Below, in pieces: positions 1,189-45,641 of a stretch of DNA of 64,000 bases. The position numbers were made by a program, and so were the translations under genes. The stretch is from NCBI GenBank assembly GCA_031291305.1, contig JARLJH010000005.1, forward strand, positions 40,236-104,235, read 5' to 3'. The stretch comes from Rhodoferax sp. (GTDB lineage Bacteria > Pseudomonadota > Gammaproteobacteria > Burkholderiales > Burkholderiaceae_C). Numbering within the stretch: position 1 is the first letter of the stretch; the number at the start of each line of letters is the position of its first letter. The notes below the pieces were generated by a model, which saw only the letters and a list, made by a program, of their open reading frames with translations, did not search any database and was not told where the DNA came from.

Positions 1189-4100
1189 ATGACCGACGCA
1201 CCGCAGCAACCCGGCTTGAACAGCCTGTCCAAATCCTTTGAGCCCGCCGCCCTGGAAGCCCACTGGGGCCCTGAGTGGGAAAAACGCGGTTATGGCGTGG
1301 CAGGCGCCCGTGGCACCGGCCAGCCCGACGCGGCTGCCGCTGCGCGTGGTGACAACTTCTGCATCCAGCTGCCCCCCCCCAACGTGACCGGCACGTTGCA
1401 CATGGGCCATGCGTTCAACCAGACCATCATGGACAGCCTGACGCGCTACCACCGCATGGCCGGTTTCAACACCGCCTGGATTCCGGGCACCGACCACGCC
1501 GGTATTGCCACCCAGATCGTGGTCGAGCGCCAGCTGCAAGCCCAAGGCATCAGCCGCCACGACATGGGCCCCACGCCTGCCGAAGCGCGCAAAAACTTCG
1601 TCGCCAAAGTCTGGGAGTGGAAGGAAAAGAGTGGCAACACCATCACCACCCAGATGCGCCGCATGGGCGACACGGTGGACTGGAGCCGCGAATACTTCAC
1701 CATGGACGACAAACTGTCCAAAACGGTGACCGAAACCTTTGTGCGTCTGTACGAGCAAGGTCTGATCTACCGTGGCAAACGCCTGGTCAACTGGGATCCG
1801 GTGTTAATGAGCGCGGTGTCTGACCTGGAAGTGGAATCTGAAGAAGAAGACGGCAGCCTGTGGCACATCATGTACCCGTTTGCCGACGGCCCGCAACTGG
1901 TCAACGGTGAACTGGCTCCCGGCCTGGTGGTGGCCACCACGCGGCCCGAGACCATGCTGGGCGACGTGGCCGCCATGGTTCACCCCGAGGACGAGCGCTA
2001 CGCCCATCTGATCGGCAAACACGTCACCCTGCCCTTGTGCAACCGCACGATTCCGATCATTGCCGACGACTATGTCGACAAAGCCTTTGGCACCGGCGTC
2101 GTCAAAGTCACCCCCGCGCATGACCAGAACGACTATGTAGTTGGCCAGCGCCACAAGCTGCCGATGATTTGTGTACTGACGCTGGATGCAAAAATTAAAG
2201 ATACCAAGGCTGATGACTGGCAAGACAAGCAACGTAATTTGGCACCTCGTGAAGACGGGGCACAGATAACAAATGAAATGTTGCTACAAAAGGATTGGAC
2301 AGTTGACTACATTCCCGCGGCTTACCGAGGACTAGACCGATTTGTAGCCAGAAAACAGATCGTCAAGGACCTGCAGGCTTTAGCGCTGATGGTCGAGATC
2401 AAAAAACACAAACTGATGGTGCCGCGCTGCGCCCGCACCGGCCAGGTGATTGAGCCGATGCTCACCGACCAGTGGTTTGTGGCGATGAGCAAAGTGTCTG
2501 AACAAGACCCGACCGGCAAGAGCATCACCCAAAAAGCCATTGACGCGGTTCAATCTGGCCAAGTCAAGTTTGTGCCCGAGAACTGGGTCAACACCTACAA
2601 CCAGTGGATGAACAACATCCAGGACTGGTGCATCAGCCGCCAGCTCTGGTGGGGCCATCAGATTCCGGCCTGGTATGCCGAAGACGGTACAGTTTTTGTA
2701 GCTAGAAACGAAGACGATGCAAGGGCTAGCGCCGAAAAAGCAGGCTACACCGGTGCCCTGAAGCGCGATGAAGACGTGCTAGACACCTGGTACTCCAGCG
2801 CCCTGGTCCCCTTCAGCACCATGGGTTGGCCCAACGAAGCAGATGCAACCAACACCGCAGCTCAGGCCGGTGCCCGTGCTGAACCGGGCGATTTGGCGAG
2901 CGCAGCGAGTATGAGCCCGGTCGGCACGGGCTCCGACCTGAGCGGAACCAACGCTCAAGCAGGCGCCAAAACAAGCCTCAACGACATCGACCTCTACCTG
3001 CCCAGCAGCGTGCTGGTGACAGGCTACGACATCATCTTCTTCTGGGTCGCCCGGATGATCATGATGACCACCCACTTCACCGGCAAAGTGCCGTTCAAAC
3101 ACGTCTACATCCACGGCCTGGTGCGCGATGCGCAAGGCCACAAGATGAGCAAGTCCGAGGGCAACGTGCTCGACCCGGTGGACCTGATCGACGGCATTGC
3201 CCTGCCCGAGCTGCTGGTCAAGCGCGCCGAAGGCCTGCGCAAGCCCGAAACCGCACCGCAAGTGCGCAAAAACACAGAGAAAGAATTCCCCAACGGCATC
3301 CCCGCCTTTGGTGCCGACGCCCTGCGTTTCACCTTCGCGTCCTTGGCTTCTCTTGGACGCTCTATCAATTTTGATAGCAAGCGCTGCGAAGGCTACCGCA
3401 ACTTCTGCAACAAACTCTGGAACGCCAGCCGCTTCGTGCTGATGAACTGCGAAGGCCAGGACTGCGGTCTGAACGACCACACCCCCGCCGAATGCGCCAC
3501 CGCTGAGTATTTGGACTTCAGCCAGGCCGACCGCTGGATCGTCTCGCTGCTGCAAAAGGTTGAGGCCGAGGTGGCACAAGGCTTCACCGAGTACCGCCTG
3601 GACAACGTGGCCAGCACCATTTACGACTTTGTCTGGAACGAGTTCTGCGACTGGTACCTGGAAATCGCCAAGGTGCAAATCCAGACCGGTGATGATGCGC
3701 AGAAACGCGCCACGCGCCGCACCCTGATCCGCACGCTGGAAACCATCTTGCGATTGGCACATCCGGTGATCCCGTTTGTGACTGAAGAGCTGTGGCAGAA
3801 AGTGGCCCCTGTAGCCGGACGCGCAGGTGCATCCATCGCCATCGCGGCCTACCCGGTGAGCCAGCCTGAGCGCATTGACGACGCGGCAATCGCCCATGTG
3901 GCCAAGCTCAAAACCCTGGTCGATGCCTGCCGCAACCTGCGTGGTGAAATGCAGGTGTCACCCGCTCAACGCCTGCCGCTGTTTGTCATGGCGTCGAACG
4001 CTGAGTCCGCCTTCATGAAGAGCGCAGCCGCGGTGCTGCAAGCCCTGGCCAAACTGAGCGAAGTGCGCGTGTTTGACGACGAGGCCGCGTGGGCCGCAGC

Positions 4101-5616: not shown

Positions 5617-5701
5617 GCCCGGGTGGTGAAATTGGTAGACGCAGGGGACTCAAAATCCCCCTCCGAAAGGAGTGCCGGTTCGATTCCGGCCCCGGGCACC
5701 A
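5617..5701 (+). tRNA. tRNA-Leu(CAA), CCA encoded
   Basis: The acceptor stem GCCCGGG (5617-5623) pairs with CCCGGGC (5691-5697), then A and CCA (5699-5701). The D-arm TGGTGAAATTGGTAGACG is typical of leucine tRNAs. The anticodon stem GGGGA/TCCCC encloses loop CTCAAAA with anticodon CAA at 5651-5653, reading UUG. A variable arm and a GGTTCGATTCC T-arm follow. It diverges from cysM. Confidence 0.97.
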
Positions 5702-36481: not shown

Positions 36482-36545
36482 TTGCTATTTCCTTTATAGC
36501 TACTAGCCAAGATATATCCTGGGATACAGCCGGATTTCTCATATA
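36482..36545 (+). repeat. Dispersed 60-bp repeat, between nirB and nirD
   Basis: Contains TTTATAGCTACTAGCCAAGA, TATATCCTGGGATACAGCCG and GATTTCTCATATAAGC. It lies within the nas operon, directly upstream of the nirD start and reaching the nirB stop. Confidence 0.65.
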
Positions 36546-39013
36546 AGCACCGAATCCTCGGCACTCAGGGCTGCAAACTGGCGGGTATCCACCGCCGCCT
36601 TGTCAAACTCAAACCAAGGGTCGGGTTCGCCGTCCAGTGCAAACTGCAGTTGTTCCCACAGCGCCTTGCGCCCCGCATGGTCTTCGACGACTTTTTTCTT
36701 GATGTAATCGAGGCCGACACGGTTCACGTAATGCACCGTGCGCTCCAGATACCAGCCTTCCTGGCGGTACAACTCACAAAACGCGCCGGTGTACTCCAGC
36801 ACCTCGGCAGCAGTCTTGACCTTGACCAGAAAGTGCGCGACTTCGGTTTTGATGCCGCCGTTGCCAGCCACATACATCTCCCAGCCGCTGTCCACGCCAA
36901 TGACACCCACGTCCTTGATACCGGCCTCGGCACAGTTGCGCGGGCAGCCGCTGACGGCAAATTTCACCTTGTGCGGGGCGTACATGCGCCACATGGCGCG
37001 TTCCAGGTCCTTGCCCATCTGCGTGCTGTCTTGCGTGCCCATGCGGCACCACTCGCTGCCGACGCAGGTTTTGACCGTGCGCAGCGCCTTGGCGTAAGCA
37101 TGGCCGCTGGGCATGCCGATGTCTTTCCAGACCGCTTGCAGGTCTTCTTTTTTGACGCCCAGCAAATCGATGCGCTGGCCACCCGTCACCTTCACGGTCG
37201 GGATCTTGTACTTGTCCACCACGTCGGCGATGCGCCGCAACTCGCTGGCCGAGGTCTCGCCGCCCCACATGCGCGGAATGACGCTGTAGCTGCCATCTTT
37301 CTGGATGTTGGCGTGAGAACGTTCGTTGATGAAACGGCTTTGCGGGTCGTCTTTGGCCTCTTTGGGCCAGGTGCTGATCAGGTAGTAGTTGAGCGCCGGG
37401 CGGCAGCTGGCACAGCCGTTGGGTGTTTTCCAGTCCAGAAATTTGAAGGTGTCAGCAATCGTCAGCAGCTTGTTGTCGCGAATCGCGTCGCGCACGGCCT
37501 GGTGCCCATGGTCGGTGCAGGCGCACATGGCCTTGGTTTTGGGCGTGGCCGAGTAGTCGCCGCCGGCGGTGAACATCAGCAGTTGTTCCACCAGACCGGT
37601 GCAGGAGCCGCATGAGGCGCTGGCCTTGGTGTGTTTGCGCACCTCGTCCAGCGTGAACAGTCCCTTGTCCTTGATGGCCTTGCAGATGGTGCCCTTGGTG
37701 ACGCCGTTGCAGCCGCAGACCTCGTCGCTGTCGGCCATGGCGGCCGCCTTGTTCTGACCCTGGTGGCCCACGTCGCCGATGTTGCTTTCGCCAAACATCA
37801 GACGGTCGCGGATGTCGGCAATCGGTCGGCCATCGCGCAGCAGCTTGAAGTACCAGCTGCCATCCACCGTGTCGCCGTACAGGCAGGCGCCGATCAGTTT
37901 GTCGTCCTTGAGCACCAGCTTCTTGTACACGCCGCCCTTGGGGTCGCTCATGATGATTTCTTCCGTGCCCTCACCCCCGGTGAAGTTACCCGCTGAAAAC
38001 AGGTCGATGCCGGTGACCTTGAGCTTGGTCGAGGTCAACGAGCCCACATACCTCCCAATGCCAAACTGCGCCAGATGGTTGGCCGCCACCTTGGCCTGCT
38101 CGAAAAGCGGCGCCACCAGGCCGTAGGCGGTACCCCGGTGCGCGGCACATTCGCCCACGCTGTAAATCCGGGCATCGGTGATGGTTTGCAGGGTGTCAGT
38201 GACCACAATGCCTTTGTCGCAGTGCAAGCGCATGCTCTGCGCCAGTTCCACATTGGGGCGGATGCCGACCGCCATGACCACCAGGTCAGCCGGTACAACG
38301 CTACCATCTTTGAAGCGCACAGCCCCCACTCTATCTGGGCTGGAAGCCGATTCGGCGGGTAAAAAGCATTCGGTCTGCGCCCCCATCAAAAAGCTCAGGC
38401 CGCGCTCTTCCAGCGACTTTTGCAGCAGTTTGCCAGCCACCACGTCAAGCTGGCGCTCCATCAGCGTCGGCATCACATGCACCACGCTGACCGTCATGCC
38501 GCGGCGCATCAGGCCGTTGGCCGCCTCCAGGCCCAGCAGGCCGCCACCGATCACCACCGCGTGTTTGTAGTTGCGCGCCGCCTCGATCATGGCGTTGGTG
38601 TCGGCAATGTCGCGGTAAGCGATCACACCTTGCAGGTCCTTGCCCGGCAAGGGCAGCATGAAGGGGTTGGAGCCGGTGCACAGCAGCAGGCGGTCGTACT
38701 CGGCGTCAATCTTGTCGCCATGGGCATTTTCCGCGTGCACCACACGTTTCACGCGGTCCACCGAGGTCACGCGCCAACCGGCATGCAGGGTGATGTGGTT
38801 GTCGCTGTACCACTCGAACGGGTTGAGCACGATCTCATCAAGCGTCTGCTCACCCGCCAGCACGGGTGACAGCAGAATGCGGTTGTAGTTGGGGTGCGGC
38901 TCAGCGCCAAAGACCGTGATGTCGTACAGATCCGGGGCGATTTTGAGCAACTCTTCGATCGTGCGGACACCGGCCATGCCGTTACCCACCATGACCAATT
39001 TCATTTTTTTCAT
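36539..39013 (-). CDS. nirB: Nitrite reductase (NADH) large subunit
   Basis: Siroheme/4Fe-4S/FAD enzyme reducing nitrite to ammonia in the cytoplasm; 824 residues. The N-terminal FAD/NAD module has VMVGNGMAGVRTIEEL and VVIGGGLLGLEAANGL. BFD-type 2Fe-2S domains follow (CGCNGVTKGTICKAI, CGSCTGLV). The siroheme-4Fe4S cysteines are in CVGSEWC and SGCPRNCAEAG near residues 640-690. The ATG at 39013 has GAGGA at good spacing. Confidence 0.96.
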   Translation of the reverse strand: MKKMKLVMVGNGMAGVRTIEELLKIAPDLYDITVFGAEPHPNYNRILLSPVLAGEQTLDEIVLNPFEWYSDNHITLHAGWRVTSVDRVKRVVHAENAHGDKIDAEYDRLLLCTGSNPFMLPLPGKDLQGVIAYRDIADTNAMIEAARNYKHAVVIGGGLLGLEAANGLMRRGMTVSVVHVMPTLMERQLDVVAGKLLQKSLEERGLSFLMGAQTECFLPAESASSPDRVGAVRFKDGSVVPADLVVMAVGIRPNVELAQSMRLHCDKGIVVTDTLQTITDARIYSVGECAAHRGTAYGLVAPLFEQAKVAANHLAQFGIGRYVGSLTSTKLKVTGIDLFSAGNFTGGEGTEEIIMSDPKGGVYKKLVLKDDKLIGACLYGDTVDGSWYFKLLRDGRPIADIRDRLMFGESNIGDVGHQGQNKAAAMADSDEVCGCNGVTKGTICKAIKDKGLFTLDEVRKHTKASASCGSCTGLVEQLLMFTAGGDYSATPKTKAMCACTDHGHQAVRDAIRDNKLLTIADTFKFLDWKTPNGCASCRPALNYYLISTWPKEAKDDPQSRFINERSHANIQKDGSYSVIPRMWGGETSASELRRIADVVDKYKIPTVKVTGGQRIDLLGVKKEDLQAVWKDIGMPSGHAYAKALRTVKTCVGSEWCRMGTQDSTQMGKDLERAMWRMYAPHKVKFAVSGCPRNCAEAGIKDVGVIGVDSGWEMYVAGNGGIKTEVAHFLVKVKTAAEVLEYTGAFCELYRQEGWYLERTVHYVNRVGLDYIKKKVVEDHAGRKALWEQLQFALDGEPDPWFEFDKAAVDTRQFAALSAEDSVLI

Positions 39014-39022
39014 GTTGTGTCC

Positions 39023-40846
39023 TCAGTGCTGGCGACCACATTGCTCAAGGAAACCAATCAGTTCCTCACGCAAGTCGTAGTAGCGGGGGTGTTCAAGTAA
39101 AGCATCGCGGGTGCGCGGGCGCTCCAGTGGCACATCCATGATGCGGCCGATCTTGGCCCGGGGACCATTGCTCATCATCACCACACGGTCGGCCAGCAAA
39201 ATGGCCTCGTCCACATCGTGTGTGACCATGATGGCCGTCACCCGGTTGCGCGCCCAGACTTCCATCAGGACTTCCTGCAGCTCCCAGCGCGTGAGCGCGT
39301 CCAGCATGCCAAAGGGCTCATCGAGCAGCAGCAGTTTCGGCTGCAAGGCAAAGGCGCGGGCAATGCCAACCCGCTGCTTCATGCCGTTGGACAGTTCACT
39401 GGCACGCTTGTGCATCGACGAACCGAGCCCGACGCGCTGCAAGTAATAGCCCGCCATGTCGGCCCGCTCGGTCGCGCTGACGTGGGGAAAGACCCGCGCC
39501 ACACCGAGCATCACGTTGTCATAGGCTGTGAGCCAGGGCACCAGACTTGGCGACTGGAACACTAGGCCGCGATCCGGTCCGGCGTCACGCACCTCGCGTC
39601 CGTCCAGCACGATCACGCCTTCAGAAATATCGGCCAAGCCCGCCATCATGGACAACACGGTGGATTTGCCACAGCCCGAGTGACCGATCAAGGAGATGAA
39701 CTCGCCTTTCTTGATCTTCAAATCGAAGCCATCAACGACCGTTTGTGGCCCTTTGGGTGTCGGGTAGATCTTGACCACCCGGGAGAACTCGGCGTAGCGC
39801 TCGTCGCTGGCGCGCTCCTGAGCACCACTCTGGGTGTCGTGAACCGGAGCCAGCAGTGCCTCGGCAGCCATCTTCTCGGCCAGATCAGCGTGCCGCATGC
39901 CCAGCCGCTTGGCCAGGGTGGTTTTGGGCGCAGGAGGCAGCTCAGATGCAGGCACCAATGTGGGTAGATGAATGACTTTGGCACTGCTGGCGTTGGGCCG
40001 CTCATGGGCCATGCGCAGCAGGGTCTGGGTGATTTCGCCGCGCAGCTTCTGGTACTGCGCGTTGTGGTTCATGGCCTGGCGGTCACGCGGGCGCGGCAGG
40101 TCCACGGTGAAGGACTTGCCCAGACCGGCACCGGGTCCAACTTCCAGCGGGATCACGCGGTCGGCCAGCATCAGGGCTTCATCGACGTCGTTGGTGATCA
40201 GCAGGACGGTTTTCTTGTCCTCGCTCCAGATGCGCACGATTTCGTCCTGCAACTGTGCGCGGGTCAGCGCGTCCAGTGCCGACAGGGGTTCGTCGAGCAA
40301 CAACACATCGGGGTCGGTGGCCAACGCCCGCGCCACGGAAACCCGTTGACGCATGCCGCCCGACAACTGCTGCGGCTTTTTGTCGATGGCGGCAGACAGG
40401 CCGACCAAGGCCACATAGCGCCGCGTGCGCTCGGCACGTTGCTCAGCACTTTCACCTGCAAACACCCGGTCCACGGCCAAGGCGACGTTTTCACCCACCG
40501 TGAGCCAGGGCATCAGCGAGTAGCTCTGGAACACGATGCCCCGATCCGGTCCCGGCTCGGTGATCGGTTTGCCGCCCTTGAGCACCTCGCCGCTGTCGGC
40601 CTGTTCCAGACCGGCCAGCAGGTTCACCAGCGTGGTTTTGCCACTGCCGGAAAAGCCCACGATGGCCACAAATTCGCCAGCGGCGATGTCCAGGTTGATG
40701 TTCTTGAGCACCTCGGCGCGTGCCGCGCCTTGTCCATAGCCTTTGCTCACGCCACTGAGGCTGAGGGCCGGGAGCTCCGGCACGACAGTGAGCGTCGGGC
40801 CGTGGGACGGGGTGTTTTCAGTTTCCAACTTGAGTGCGTTACCCAT
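39023..40846 (-). CDS. Nitrate ABC transporter, two ATPase domains in one chain
   Basis: A 607-residue NrtC/NrtD-like protein with two complete ATPases. Domain 1 (about 25-270): Walker [17 protein letters not shown], signature [15 protein letters not shown], Walker [13 protein letters not shown]. Domain 2 (about 350-600): Walker [17 protein letters not shown], signature [15 protein letters not shown], Walker [14 protein letters not shown] Pro/Ala-rich linker with [20 protein letters not shown] joins them. The cyanobacterial NrtC C-terminal binding domain is absent. Cytoplasmic face of NrtB. Confidence 0.9.
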
Positions 40847-40861
40847 GATTTTTCCTATGCC

Positions 40862-41827
40862 TCAACGGCGTGCGCTCAGGTCTTGCAGCAATTGCATGAT
40901 GCGGTCCAGGCCGAAGCCGATCAGGCCAATCGTGAAAACGGCCACGATGATCCGGCTGAGCGAATCGGAGCTGCCGTTCTGGAACTCGTCCCAGACGAAT
41001 TTACCCAGGCCGGGGTTTTGCGCCAGCATCTCGGCGGCGATCAGCACCATCCAGCCCACGCCCAGCGAAATGCGCATGCCAGCAAAAATGAAGGGCAAGG
41101 CCGACGGCAGAATGATCTTGCGCACCCGGGTCATCAATGGCAGCTTCAGCACCCGCCCGACGTTCACCAGGTCACGGTCCACCGAGGTGACACCAATGGC
41201 GGTGTTGATCAGCGTCGGCCACAGCGAGCACAAGGTGACGGTGATCGCCGAGACCAGAAACGATTTCTCAAACATCGGTTCGCCATGCGTGACATAGAGC
41301 GCACTCACCAGCAGCGTGACGATGGGTAGCCAGGCCAATGGCGACACCGGCCGAAAAATCTGCACGATGGGGTTGATGGCGGCCTGGACAAAGCGCGAGG
41401 AGCCCGCCAGGATGCCCAGCGGCACGGCCACCAGGGTGGCCAGCAAGAAGCCCGCAAACACGGTCTTCAGACTGGTCAGGATCTGTGCCAGATAGGTGGG
41501 TTTGCCGGTGTAGGCACGGATGACGGGCTCGTAGCTGGGGTCCTGCGCCTTGAGTTCCGCATTGCGCTTTTCCTGGCGCTCGTAGAACGCCGAGCGGCGG
41601 GCCTGCTCACCCAGGTAATCGTCCCACAGCGATTTGGTTTGCGCCAGCACCTGAACCGGCCCGGGCAAAACACCCAGACTGGTCTGGATGTTGGACGCCA
41701 CCGCACCCCACAGGGCCATGAACAGTACCAATGACACCAGGGGAATGCCCAAGGTGAACATCAGCGCGCGCCCCGCTCCAGCGGGATCGCTGCCGATGCG
41801 CATGAATCGATTCAGTATGCCTTGCAT
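40862..41827 (-). CDS. nrtB: Nitrate ABC transporter permease
   Basis: Inner-membrane permease, 321 residues, of the NrtB/TauC/SsuC type. About six hydrophobic segments; the cytoplasmic EAA-like loop is near NVGRVLKLPLMTRVRKIILPSALPFI. A charged insert between TM1 and TM2 (GEQARRSAFYERQEKRNAEL) is also common in proteobacterial NrtB. It sits 15 bases upstream of the ATPase gene. Confidence 0.92.
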   Translation of the reverse strand: MQGILNRFMRIGSDPAGAGRALMFTLGIPLVSLVLFMALWGAVASNIQTSLGVLPGPVQVLAQTKSLWDDYLGEQARRSAFYERQEKRNAELKAQDPSYEPVIRAYTGKPTYLAQILTSLKTVFAGFLLATLVAVPLGILAGSSRFVQAAINPIVQIFRPVSPLAWLPIVTLLVSALYVTHGEPMFEKSFLVSAITVTLCSLWPTLINTAIGVTSVDRDLVNVGRVLKLPLMTRVRKIILPSALPFIFAGMRISLGVGWMVLIAAEMLAQNPGLGKFVWDEFQNGSSDSLSRIIVAVFTIGLIGFGLDRIMQLLQDLSARR

Positions 41828-41858: not shown

Positions 41859-43232
41859 TCAGGCCTTGTCAGCGCCCTTGAGCCCGATGGGGAATTTCTT
41901 CAAGTAATCGTTGGGCTTGCGGCCGTCGTAGCTGATGCCGTCAATGAAGCCTTCCTGCACGCCCTTGAAGCCGTCGGTCTTGGGCACATCGGTCGCTTTG
42001 ATCTTGCCCTCGGCAATCAACTCGTTGGCCGCTTGCATGTAGACCTCGGGCAGATACACCTTCTTGGCGGTGTCGATGTACCAGCTGTCGGGCTTGGACT
42101 CGGCAATCTGGCCCCAACGACGCATCTGAGTCAGGTACCAGACGGCATCGCTGTAGAACGGGAAGGTGGCGTAGTTCTTGAAGAACACGTTGAAGTCCGG
42201 TGCCGGGCGCTTGTCACCCTTTTCGTATTCAAAGGTGCCAGTCATGCTGTTGCCGATGACGGCAGCATCCGCCCCCACGTAGTTGGACTTGGACAGAATC
42301 TTGACGGCTTCAATGCGGTTGGCCATGCTGGCATCAAGCCATTGCCCGGCGCGAATCAGCGCCTTGACCACGGCGACGTGGGTGCGCGGGTTTTGCTTGG
42401 CCCAGGCGCTGGTCACGCCAAACACTTTCTCGGGCTTGTACTTCCAGATGTCGTGGTCAATGATGAGCGGCACACCGATGCCTTTGATCACCGCCTGCTG
42501 GTTCCAGGGCTCGCCAACGCAATAGCCGTTGATGGTGCCCGCTTCCATGGTGGACGGCATTTGCGGCGGCGGTGTCACCGACAGCAGCACGTCGGCTTTT
42601 TTGGTGCCTGTGATGTCGCTGGGCGTGTAGTAACCGGGGTTCAGACCACCGGCAGCCAGCCAGTAACGCAGCTCGTAGTTATGGGTGGACACCGGGAACA
42701 CCATGCCCATCTTGAACGACTTGCCTTCTTTCTTCCAGGCATCAACCACTTTTTTCAGCACGTCGGCCTTGATCGGGTGCTTGACCTGACCGCCCTCCAT
42801 GGGCAGAAATTTCTTCATCTCACCCCAGACTTCGTTGGACACGGTGATGCCGTTGCCATTGAGATCCATGCTGAAAGCGGTGACCACATCCGCCTTGGTA
42901 CCGACACCGATGGTGGCACCCAGAGGCTGCCCGGCCAGCATGTGGGCGCCGTCAAGTTGACCACCGATCACACCGTCAAGCAGCACTTTCCAGTTGGCTT
43001 GCGCTTCCAGCGTCACATACAGACCTTCGTCCTCAAAGAAGTGCTTTTCATAGGCGATGACCAGCGGTGCGCAGTCGGTCAGCTTGATGAAACCAAATTT
43101 CAGTTCAGCCTTTTCAGGTTGTTTGATCTTTTGCGCTTGTGCCGCACGCGGCAGTCCCAGGGCAGCCGTACCGGCCAATGCAACCGAGGCGGTGATGAGG
43201 CGACGGCGATCCAACGAAATGTTCGAGTTCAT
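41859..43232 (-). CDS. nrtA: Nitrate ABC transporter substrate-binding protein
   Basis: Periplasmic nitrate-binding protein, 457 residues. The twin-arginine signal [14 protein letters not shown] runs to ...RAAQA|QKIK. CmpA/NrtA signatures are [53 protein letters not shown] and EPWNQQAV. The start at 43232 is where the signal begins; the in-frame extension upstream is not conserved. Confidence 0.93.
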
Positions 43233-43272: not shown

Positions 43273-44541
43273 TCAGGCCATGCAGGTCTGGCGCCGCTGT
43301 GGCGCACGAACCGTGAACGCATCGGCGTAGGCCACCGGGTCGCTGCCATCCCAGACCACGCCGTCCATCAGCGTTGAGCGCCGCATCGGACTGGTGGGCA
43401 GGTTGATGTTCAGCGCTGAAGCGGCTTGCCGGTACAGCTCGACCTGGTTGATCTGCTGGGCCACGCCCAGGTAGTCGGGGTGGGCATCAAGCAGCCCCCA
43501 GCGTTTATGCTGCGTCAGGAACCACATGCCGTCAGACAAATAGGGGAAATTCACCGCGCCGTCGCCGTGGAAGGCCATCGGGTTCGGGTCGGTCCAGGTC
43601 CGACCCAATCCGTCTTCGTATCGGCCCAGAATGCGCTCGCTGATGCCATTGACCGGCGTGTTCACATACGCCTTGCTGGCAATCGTTTCTGCCATCTTCT
43701 GACGGTTGGCCGGGCTGGCATCAATCCAGCGGCTGGCCTCCAGCACCGCCATGGTCACGGCGCGCGCCGTGTTGGGGTGGGTCTTGACAAAGTCCTGCGT
43801 GCTGCCCAGCACTTTTTCAGGATGATTGGCCCACACATCCTGCGACGATGCGGCGTGAATGGACACGCCCTCGATGATGCCGCGATGGTTCCAGGGCTCG
43901 CCCACCGAGAAACCGTCCATCGCGCCCAGCCGGGCGCTGCTCACCATCTGGGGCGGAGGCACCACAATCGTCTTGACATCGGTCACCGGGTTGACGCCCG
44001 CCGAGGCCAACCAGTAGTTCAACCACATGGCGTGCGTGCCGGTGGGAAAAGTCTGGGCAAAGACGTAATCGCGCGGCTTCTTGTGCATCAGATCGACCAA
44101 AGAGGCCAGGTTGACCGCGCCCTGGTCGGCCAGCTTGCGCGACAGGCTCAAGCCTTGGCCGTTCTGGTTCAAGGTCATCAACACGGCCATGTCTTTCTTC
44201 GGGCCACCAAGCCCCAGATGCACGCCGTAAACCAGGCCATACAGCACCTGTGCAAAGTCCAGCTCGCCGCTGACGAGCTTGTCACGCACACCCGCCCAGC
44301 TGGCTTCCCGGGTGGGAATGATCTTGATGCCGTATTTCCGGTCAAAACCCAGTTCGGCCGCCATCACCACGCTGGCACAGTCGGTGAGCGGCAGAAAGCC
44401 GACCTTCACCTCGGTGATTTCCGGTGCATCGGAGCCCCCCGGATAGGCCGCAGCGCTTGCGGCAGATGTCATACCCGTGGCATCCGCAGCCAGCCCAGGC
44501 TGGGCCGAGCCGCCTGCATTGGAAGGTAAAGCATTCGTCAT
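43273..44541 (-). CDS. nasS: NasS-type cytoplasmic nitrate sensor (NrtA-like)
   Basis: A 422-residue CmpA/NrtA-family protein with [55 protein letters not shown] and EPWNHRGI. It has no signal peptide: the N-terminus is Ser/Ala/Gly-rich and not hydrophobic. With nasT adjacent, this fits NasS, which holds the antiterminator NasT inactive until nitrate or nitrite binds. Start 44541, preceded by AAGGA. It is the first gene behind the ANTAR leader. Confidence 0.85.
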
Positions 44542-44569: not shown

Positions 44570-44637
44570 AAAAAAAAAGGCGTCCTCACGTTGCGACACG
44601 CATCAAAAATGCGGTGTCTGCAAGTGGGGACGCCTTT
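44570..44637 (-). terminator. Leader terminator before nasS
   Basis: On the minus strand AAAGGCGTCC (44637-44628) pairs with GGACGCC (44585-44579) and is followed by nine T. The interior forms a further stem (GACACCGCAT against ATGCGTGTC). It ends 28 bases before the nasS start, so it would block nasS and all genes behind it unless suppressed. Confidence 0.88.
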
Positions 44638-44652
44638 GTCCGGTGTGACCAG

Positions 44653-44702
44653 CGCTACCCGCCGTTGGGTAGCGTTTGTCAAATGACCATCAGTGGTCTT
44701 GA
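44653..44702 (-). ncRNA. ANTAR-type antiterminator leader (tandem hexaloop hairpins)
   Basis: Minus strand. Hairpin 1: TCAAGACC (44702-44695), loop ACTGAT, GGTC (44688-44685), bulge AT, TTGA. Hairpin 2: CGCTACCC (44674-44667), loop AACGGC, GGGTAGCG (44660-44653). Both loops have six bases with A at position 1 and G at position 4, the known requirement for ANTAR-protein binding. A 4-base linker separates them, and the terminator arm begins 16 bases after. Confidence 0.85.
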
Positions 44703-44710
44703 TAAATGTC

Positions 44711-44728
44711 AAGCAATCACTGTGCCAA
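44711..44728 (-). promoter_or_regulatory. Sigma-54 promoter of the nas operon
   Basis: TTGGCACAGTGATTGCTT on the minus strand has the -24 GG (44726-44725) and -12 GC (44714-44713) exactly 10 bases apart and matches TGGCAC-N5-TTGC. Transcription would start near 44701, at the first base pairs of the ANTAR hairpins. An inverted repeat GTGCCA-N8-TGGCAC (44722-44741) overlaps the -24 element. Confidence 0.8.
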
Positions 44729-44764
44729 TGCTATGTGGCACCGATCTGGCCGCCATGACGTGCT

Positions 44765-44832: not shown

Positions 44833-44949
44833 ACCTCGCAAGGTATTCAGCGTAGCCCTGATGTTGTGCCTTGCACCGAAACAGGTACAGCAGCGCACGA
44901 TTCACGGTCATGGCCGCGCCTTCAAAGTGCGCGGTGACCCCTCAAAGGG

Positions 44950-45576
44950 CTAGCCCAGCAGGTCCGCCGCATCGAGCATGCGCTGCGCCAAATCAACCAG
45001 CTTGAGGTTTTTGTCCATGGCGGTTTTGCGCAGCTTGGCGTAGGCCGCCTCTTCCGTCAGTTGCTGGCGCTGCATCAGCAGGCCTTTGGCGCGGTCGATC
45101 ACCTTGCGGTCCTGAATTTCGGCTTTGGCATCGGCCAGTTCGGCCCGCAAGGATTGTTCGTGCTCGAAACGTGCCATCGCCACGTCCAGAATCGGGCGAA
45201 TGCGCTCGGGCGACAAACCCGCCACGATGTACGCCGACACGCCCGCAGCCACGGCGGCTCGCGCGTTGTTGCTGTCCTGATCGTTGGTGAACATGACGAT
45301 GGGGCGGCGTGCATCACGCGTGGCCATGACCACGTGCTCCAGCGCGTCACGCGCATCGCTTTCGGCGTCCACAATGATCATGTCAGGCTGTAGCTGCGCG
45401 ATGCGATCCGCTAGAAACACATCGGCAGGCAAGGTGGCGATCAGGTTGAAGCCGTTTTCCAGCAGCCCAATGCGCAGGCTGCGCGAGCGCTCCGCCTGTG
45501 TGCGGGCGTAGTCGTCGTCCGGCGCTGGCAACGCCAGGTCGGGAGCCACCACCACGATACGCAAAGCAGGGTTCAT
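44950..45576 (-). CDS. nasT: Nitrate-responsive antitermination regulator NasT
   Basis: A 208-residue response-regulator-like protein. The N-terminal receiver-like domain (about 1-130; DMIIVDAESDARDALEHV, PIVMFTND) is followed by a C-terminal ANTAR RNA-binding domain (about 145-205) with DRAKGLLMQRQQLTEEAAYAKLRK and the end LVDLAQRML. NasT binds hexaloop RNA hairpins to suppress terminators. Start 45576; upstream Met codons are unconserved. It lies 370 bases upstream of its predicted target leader, outside the attenuated segment. Confidence 0.92.
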   Translation of the reverse strand: MNPALRIVVVAPDLALPAPDDDYARTQAERSRSLRIGLLENGFNLIATLPADVFLADRIAQLQPDMIIVDAESDARDALEHVVMATRDARRPIVMFTNDQDSNNARAAVAAGVSAYIVAGLSPERIRPILDVAMARFEHEQSLRAELADAKAEIQDRKVIDRAKGLLMQRQQLTEEAAYAKLRKTAMDKNLKLVDLAQRMLDAADLLG

Positions 45577-45641
45577 TACGGTCTTCGCAGCAAGATTCAA
45601 GCCGTCTTCCTACCGATCACATCGACAACATGCACTCACGG

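Follow-up and report, generated by a model that had tools for sequence, protein, structure and literature searches.

What decides whether transcription enters the nitrate assimilation operon of this Rhodoferax, and what is the protein encoded first behind that decision? In the 64,000-nucleotide stretch of DNA analysed here (the window), the operon and the regulatory gene nasT both lie on the minus strand, and the short leader between them had been read in a preliminary description as a NasT-controlled switch in front of nasS. We consider it about 80% probable that this leader is a sigma-54-driven antiterminator of the NasT/ANTAR type that terminates by default, for which we infer NasT binding and a response to nitrate. 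The genes are, in order of transcription:

44950..45600, minus strand: nasT, ANTAR antiterminator whose receiver domain is degenerate (listed at 216 aa; its precise start is uncertain).
43273..44541, minus strand: SBP1 (the earlier nasS), nitrate-binding-type protein of the NrtA lineage, no Tat signal, 422 aa (Pfam NMT1_2, 301.7 bits).
41859..43232, minus strand: nrtA2, second solute-binding protein (Pfam NMT1_2, 321.9 bits; Tat-type signal read by eye).
40862..41827, minus strand: nrtB permease (TIGR01183, 164.2 bits, under the cut-off of 209.05).
39023..40846, minus strand: nrtC/D, fused double ATPase of 607 aa (matches TIGR01184 in two stretches, 609.9 bits).
36539..39013, minus strand: nirB, nitrite reductase large subunit (TIGR02374, 889.3 bits; 93% identical to that of L018).

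The nasT product matches the Pfam ANTAR family at 70.1 bits and Response_reg at 20.4 bits, the latter under the cut-off, and is 88% identical to NasT of the Rhodoferax ferrireducens MAG L018. As had been described, nasT itself is outside the switch, and one solute-binding-protein gene together with the transport genes and nirB lies behind it. For comparison, related loci were retrieved with the protein behind the leader and the best 80 of 532 relatives were used. Among these 80 loci, nasT stands upstream on the same strand in 68 and was not found in the other 12 within the fetched stretch (at most 5 kb, with less for L039, L073 and L074), the SBP1 orthologue is followed by nrtB in 79 (the L002 stretch ends first), and nirB falls within the stretch in 32. 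Two ANTAR genes were found in the genome, one being the nasT next to the leader. The other (L082, positions 1063-1686 on contig C7 of the same genome) lies directly behind a frame that resembles a PAS/histidine kinase by eye, and perhaps belongs to a different two-component ANTAR pair.

Between nasT and SBP1 the control region contains the following elements, where A1 and G4 denote A and G at loop positions 1 and 4:

44916..44930, minus strand: possible degenerate NtrC enhancer GCAC-N7-GCGC, one mismatch from GCAC-N7-GTGC.
44713..44727, minus strand: sigma-54 -24/-12 promoter TGGCACAGTGATTGC, called on motif and conservation, with a predicted start at about 44701.
44685..44698, minus strand: H1, at the predicted 5' end, a stem of 5 bp (GACCA/TGGTC) capped by the tetraloop CTGA, supported by covariation; not an ANTAR hexaloop.
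44653..44674, minus strand: H2, ANTAR P1, 8-bp stem and A1/G4 hexaloop, CGCTACCC-AACGGC-GGGTAGCG, supported by covariation.
44628..44641, minus strand: H3, ANTAR P2 and antiterminator, GGAC-AAAGGC-GTCC (A1, G4), whose loop and 3' arm are the 5' arm of the terminator.
44570..44637, minus strand: intrinsic terminator AAAGGCGTCC...GGACGCCTTT plus T9 (pairing AAAGGCGTCC...GGACGCC), excluded by H3, called on sequence and folding.

The sigma-54-type box is present as first described (TGGCAC-AGTGA-TTGC, 44727-44713, minus strand, with GG-N10-GC spacing). Taken alone this box is poor evidence, with three matches in the 64-kb window versus 0.66 expected and 6 of 100 shuffles reaching three; genome-wide the pattern is enriched (50 matches versus 9 for the reversed pattern). 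Because the box by itself is weak in the window, the promoter call rests on conservation: TGGCA[C/T]-N6-TGC occurs upstream of the same gene in 78 of the best 80 of 532 relatives, the exceptions being L004 with a looser box and L065 with none. Using what we take to be the distance from -12 to +1, the predicted start near 44701 lies three bases ahead of hairpin 1, in line with the earlier placement. GCAC-N7-GTGC has the half-site spacing of NtrC, and exact copies were found in 50 of 79 regions upstream of the box versus 0.4 in base-shuffled regions (single bases shuffled, not dinucleotides). The upstream region of the window has no exact site; its best site has one mismatch, a level also attained by about 11 of the 79 regions after shuffling, and is not significant alone. 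In Acidovorax citrulli, deletion of ntrC reportedly lowers expression of a gene called 'nasS' and raises that of nasT (PMC10052978). Acidovorax is present among the relatives, and the A. citrulli 'nasS' is matched by name only to the gene behind the leader.

The choice of switch hairpins can be judged against the rule for ANTAR targets, by which A1 and G4 are present in the loops of both P1 and P2, and P2 overlaps the terminator (PMC3369936; PMC3369931). The preliminary description had taken hairpins 1 and 2, with loops ACTGAT and AACGGC, as the tandem pair bound by NasT, and the gene behind them as an ordinary NasS. Both hairpins exist, the first as GACC-ACTGAT-GGTC (44698-44685), and loop 1 does read A1 and G4 in the window; ACTGAT is nevertheless no genuine hexaloop. 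We compared 32 aligned leaders, namely the window and 31 leaders picked for similar spacing, so that the pair counts describe one subtype. In these leaders the H1 stem is conserved, and the first and sixth loop bases covary while staying paired in 25 of 32 (A-U 11, C-G 8, G-C 6, other 7), which makes a five-pair stem with a tetraloop the best reading of H1; in the window the tetraloop form has an energy of -4.5 versus -4.0 kcal/mol for the hexaloop form. Of the 32 leaders, 15 have A1 in loop 1 and 21 have G4 there; in loops 2 and 3 both bases are found in all 32. A few relatives do have a fuller loop-1 hexaloop (for example gagaccAAAGGCggtctc in L035). Since A1/G4 is not kept in loop 1 and a fifth base pair covaries there, H1 was rejected as a member of the ANTAR tandem. 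Further, in L006 and L032 (Mitsuaria, Roseateles) H2 lies too near the box for any H1, yet H2 and H3 are kept. The H1 and H2 version would moreover have no mutually exclusive switch, since neither hairpin overlaps the terminator. Together with the descent of SBP1 described below, which contradicts an ordinary NasS, we find this model quite improbable.

The true pair is hairpins 2 and 3, of which H3 (GGAC-AAAGGC-GTCC, 44641-44628) was absent from the earlier list and was found by scanning for A1/G4 hexaloops. Such hexaloops with a stem of at least 4 bp number 91 on the 64-kb minus strand, or about 0.2 expected per 134 bases, and by this sequence rule the leader has three, an unusual number. H2 is supported by covariation, with seven of eight pairs changed on both sides and a score of 0.563 versus 0.234 in shuffled alignments, none of the 500 shuffles attaining it. 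The H3 stem does not vary within the 32-leader alignment, which gives it no covariation support from that set; elsewhere it varies with pairing preserved (gaac/gttc, gagc/gttc, gggc/gccc). A strict rule (A1/G4 hexaloop, stem of at least 4, 3' arm forming the terminator 5' arm) was satisfied in 68 of 81 loci versus a shuffled mean of 0.8. A relaxed rule (A or G at loop position 1, stem of at least 3) gave 79 of 81 versus 5.75 in shuffled loci, a somewhat generous count, as at least five selected hairpins are not true H3 (GCAGGG in L016, GCAGGA in L055, ACGGCT in L065, and H2 in L014 and L079). L014 and L079 do possess a true H3 outside these picks; L011 and L060 fail the relaxed rule, L011 having an H3 hairpin with an unusual terminator. 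An earlier count that allowed Watson-Crick terminator pairing only (41 of 79, or 44 with A or G at loop position 1; shuffled 0) was replaced because it missed G-U pairs. An additional upstream A1/G4 hexaloop was seen in 70 of 81 loci, and none was found in nine of 79 (L009, L014, L016, L025, L034, L055, L064, L075, L079).

The terminator is present as had been stated, with nine T and 28 bases ahead of the ATG at 44541 (44637-44570, minus strand). Folded stepwise in 4-base increments, the leader shows H3 from 44626 until 44586, after which the terminator replaces it, and the terminator form is calculated at -63.6 versus -49.7 kcal/mol with H3 forced, a gap of about 14 kcal/mol. The counts and the folding thus agree on the property of the second hairpin of an ANTAR dual-hairpin RNA, which overlaps and excludes the terminator. 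On sequence grounds H2 and H3 are the canonical ANTAR P1/P2 pair, with ANTAR binding itself predicted.

Two variations were seen across the family. P2 loops with G instead of A at position 1 (GACGGC, GATGGC, GACGAC) form a natural exception to the A1 rule in eight loci (L001, L027, L038, L046, L056, L057, L067, L071), which include Rhizobacter, Piscinibacter and Azohydromonas. An outer pairing around the 8-bp H2 stem (44645-44683) seems recurrent, as TGAC/GGTC in the window fold and GACAG/CTGTC in L039.

An ANTAR covariance model, the check proposed for the leader at the outset, gave a positive result. A model of H2 and H3 was built from 30 relatives, with the window left out as the test and L075 left out for its H2 loop AACGCA, and it recovered the window at 66.2 bits (E 1.9e-16). 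The next matches in the same genome reached 19.9 (E 0.054) and 15.9 bits, scoring having covered 150 of the 2,837 first-look candidates. At E of at most 0.1 the model matches 33 of 55 other loci, made up of 30 of 49 relatives, the Erwinia nasR-nasF region (21.6 bits) and those of Caballeronia and Burkholderia stagnalis; the regions of Paracoccus, XES5 and Phyllobacterium gave no match at that threshold, so the model covers one subtype. The weak matches near nitrate genes lie at L128:1796-1876 (minus) and 2222-2266 (plus) in Caballeronia and at L132:2512-2554 in B. stagnalis, where nasT and a signal-less partner are paired with no space between them for a leader. A second leader in the same genome was considered at C22:791-804 (L084:791-804, minus strand), the single place that matches the H3 core with one mismatch, and rejected, as no T run follows; its AAAGGC hexaloop hairpin shortly before a repeat-rich open frame is probably chance, and loose H3-core matches in the genome number 94 versus 137 for the reversed control.

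At the Rfam cut-offs the whole window gave only a tRNA (5617-5698). A relaxed search placed the leader below the gathering score of two families, at 26.4 bits (E 0.0012, gathering 70) for P11 and 27.7 bits (E 0.0041, about 0.004; gathering 43.2) for narK RNA, so that it belongs to neither at those scores. P11 (RF00625) is taken here as the Pseudomonas NalA leader, which precedes nirBD. Its consensus shares with the window a similar box, GGACAAAGGCGUCC and GGACGCC, and it differs in the stem inside the terminator and in the genes that follow, which are SBP1-nrtABC-nirB behind the window leader. The narK RNA (RF03032) has a conserved GGCACA-N4-UUGCU that we read as a sigma-54 box and CGACAAAGACGUCG that we read as a P2-type hexaloop, while its middle hairpin aligns poorly to the window. 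Both models (window 44579-44739) appear to take sigma-54 promoter DNA as 'RNA' consensus, part of which P11 pairs; both carry a P2-type hexaloop and look like a single NasT/ANTAR leader family. We found no report of narK RNA as an ANTAR target in titles and abstract openings of the open-licence literature. The P11 match, which spans promoter and terminator, raises the alternative that the leader acts mainly as a free small RNA, like the Pseudomonas sRNA P11, instead of a switch in cis. The mutual exclusion of H3 and terminator speaks against this, as does the position of the leader, which among the best 80 of 532 relatives stays ahead of the transporter operon, and P11 is itself presumably the NalA leader; we regard a free small RNA as extremely unlikely.

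Published systems offer close precedents. According to PMC3795266 and PMC5424462, NasT binds the nasA leader, and nitrate frees NasT from NasS. In Pseudomonas, a review (PMC12830290) describes NalA as subject to NasT antitermination with sigma-54 and NtrC in a nitrate assimilation operon. The window resembles NalA in its sigma-54-type promoter and nitrate assimilation operon, with control by NtrC and NasT predicted, and the -24/-12 promoter just before the hairpins that marks a NalA-type leader is found in the window and in 78 of the 80 loci (best 80 of 532). Because its folding fits the ANTAR rule and these NasT and NalA precedents, the leader is most likely a NasT-controlled antiterminator. 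The Klebsiella and Erwinia NasR-nasF leaders also have P1 and P2 loops with A1 and G4 and a P2 overlapping the terminator (PMC3369936), and Erwinia rhapontici has the same order of regulator, leader, nrtABC and nirB. NasR, unlike the NasT of the window, senses nitrate itself, NasT having no recognised nitrate-sensing domain according to PMC3795266. In Paracoccus denitrificans, NasT likewise works with a signal-less NrtA-like partner, a hairpin leader precedes the nas operon, and mutation of hairpin HI abolishes growth on nitrate (PMC5424462). There, however, nasTS is cotranscribed upstream of the leader, whereas SBP1 lies behind it and belongs to the NrtA/NasF lineage with about 30% identity to Paracoccus NasS. 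The AmiC-AmiR system of Pseudomonas aeruginosa is similar in placing the ligand-binding protein of an ANTAR regulator, a separate protein, behind the switch (amiECBRS; PMC3369936), although there the regulator gene is also behind it and the window nasT is outside.

Taken together, the leader would work as follows. Transcription would start from the sigma-54 promoter, probably driven by NtrC, and would terminate by default. H2 (AACGGC) and then H3 (AAAGGC) would fold ahead of synthesis of the terminator 3' arm, H1 being a 5'-terminal stem-tetraloop outside the switch proper. With nitrate present, free NasT would bind both A1/G4 loops as a dimer and hold H3, keeping the 3' arm GTCC out of the terminator and allowing RNA polymerase to continue into SBP1-nrtA2-nrtB-nrtCD-nirB. 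Without free NasT, the more stable terminator would win. The leader is in this sense a NasT leader of the ordinary kind, though a well-supported one, and the interest of the locus lies in SBP1 and in the missing NasS of its relatives.

By descent SBP1 is not the nasS that it had been called. It shares 63-74% identity with Tat-type orthologues and 30-32% with the NasS of Paracoccus, Phyllobacterium and strain XES5, and its best solved-structure match is NrtA 2g29. In a tree of 32 proteins it nests within the exported-NrtA clade (99/98), next to a congener with weak support (82/87) and on an end branch of 0.49, apart from the three NasS proteins, which form a separate group. Against a NasS profile it scores 351 bits versus 346-381 for full-length congeneric NrtAs and so shows no pull toward classical NasS. 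The export signal was read in 102 loci (the 80 and 22 from congeners, with some genomes probably occurring twice), any RR within 50 in-frame residues ahead of the mature start counting as a signal. It is present in 99 of 99 readable orthologues, which leave out L114 and L115 (other type) and L116 (contig edge) as lacking the mature start motif, and is absent from SBP1; no other genome among those read has a signal-less SBP1 orthologue. SBP1 thus lacks an export signal as a NasS does, with a hydropathy maximum of 0.63 versus 1.00-1.80 in 19 relatives. A frame error hiding the Tat signal was rejected, as the other two frames show none. The pocket residues W82, Q129, H170 and K243 are kept, aligned to W102, Q155, H196 and K269, presumably the nitrate residues of 2g29. 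In Caballeronia and B. stagnalis, nasT is followed directly by a signal-less protein of the SBP1 type, which in Caballeronia adjoins the NrtA/NasF clade on a long branch; this arrangement indicates that NrtA-like proteins can pair with nasT in a nasT-first order.

The rest of the operon suggests, from its sequence relationships, that the transporter was replaced and the old NrtA remained ahead of it: nrtB and the ATPase resemble the genes downstream in the relatives at only 31-45% and 47-56%, against the 88% of nasT and 93% of nirB to L018. No second solute-binding protein was found at E 1e-10 in any of the 80 related loci. In the window nrtA2 is 36% identical to SBP1 in a search of the same genome, and two congeners that have no close NasT carry relatives of nrtA2 (66-67%).

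SBP1 could accordingly be a decaying relic of NrtA whose nrtBC were replaced by nrtA2-nrtB-nrtCD, the leader then driving the new transporter and nirB and NasT being controlled otherwise. Its long branch and lost signal and the complete second transporter downstream would suit such decay, as would its fast evolution: SBP1 is changed at 16 of 175 columns invariant in 19 relatives, eight of these clustered in residues 202-232, while leaving out each Burkholderiales relative in turn gave 0-4 such changes and Erwinia gave 32 of 207. On the other hand, the 422-aa frame is intact with its pocket residues kept, dN/dS between SBP1 and four NrtAs is 0.18-0.29 versus 0.10-0.17 in four Burkholderiales NrtA pairs (0.20 for NrtA versus Erwinia NasF), and the genome yielded only one other protein of the NrtA/NasS type. 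We regard the relic as possible, if unlikely. We lean towards SBP1 acting as the cytoplasmic, nitrate-responsive partner of NasT: descended from NrtA, stripped of its Tat signal and with its pocket kept, it would most likely be a NasS derived from NrtA and encoded behind its own switch. The negative feedback loop proposed at the outset holds only if SBP1 inhibits NasT.

How NasT would sense nitrate elsewhere in the genus was assessed in 60 sampled genomes, including the one studied here. A NasT with at least 75% identity over nearly the whole length occurs in 20 of the 60 (G020 additionally has a fragment). Thirteen of the 19 NasT-bearing congeners have only one NrtA/NasS-type protein below E 1e-10 and the other six have at least one more. 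Eight of these 13 are at least 98% complete (G003, G006, G013, G024, G032, G033, G037, G055), and in these a NasS profile found nothing better than E 1e-6 besides NrtA. From these searches, those congeners appear to lack a separate NasS for their NasT. For the genome studied here, too, a distinct NasS at another place was rejected, SBP1 and nrtA2 being the only two proteins of the type found. In L114 and L115, two congeners without a close NasT, an ANTAR match lies in a 438-aa frame (NasR-sized) beside a different nrtABC, which suggests that NasT was swapped for NasR within the genus.

A tentative and rather doubtful proposal is that in Rhodoferax and its kin the Tat-exported NrtA, folded in the cytoplasm before export, doubles as the nitrate sensor of NasT, and that the NrtA of the window became a full-time NasS. 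Three points weigh against it: the NasS-profile score of SBP1 is no better than those of NrtAs, its fast evolution may reflect decay, and the change is seen in a single genome. We found no report of NrtA acting as NasS in titles and abstract openings of the open-licence literature.

The leader RNA itself, a NasT leader backed by covariation, identifies the hairpins that make up the switch, and the comparison suggests that the narK RNA and P11 entries of Rfam are sigma-54 promoters joined to ANTAR antiterminators. If the proposal for NrtA were true, uptake protein, sensor and feedback inhibitor would be one gene product, encoded first behind the NasT leader, and in the window the transport job would have passed to a new ABC cassette as a transporter subunit turned regulator. 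The locus thereby raises a testable question, namely how the nitrate signal reaches NasT in those bacteria for which no separate NasS was detected.
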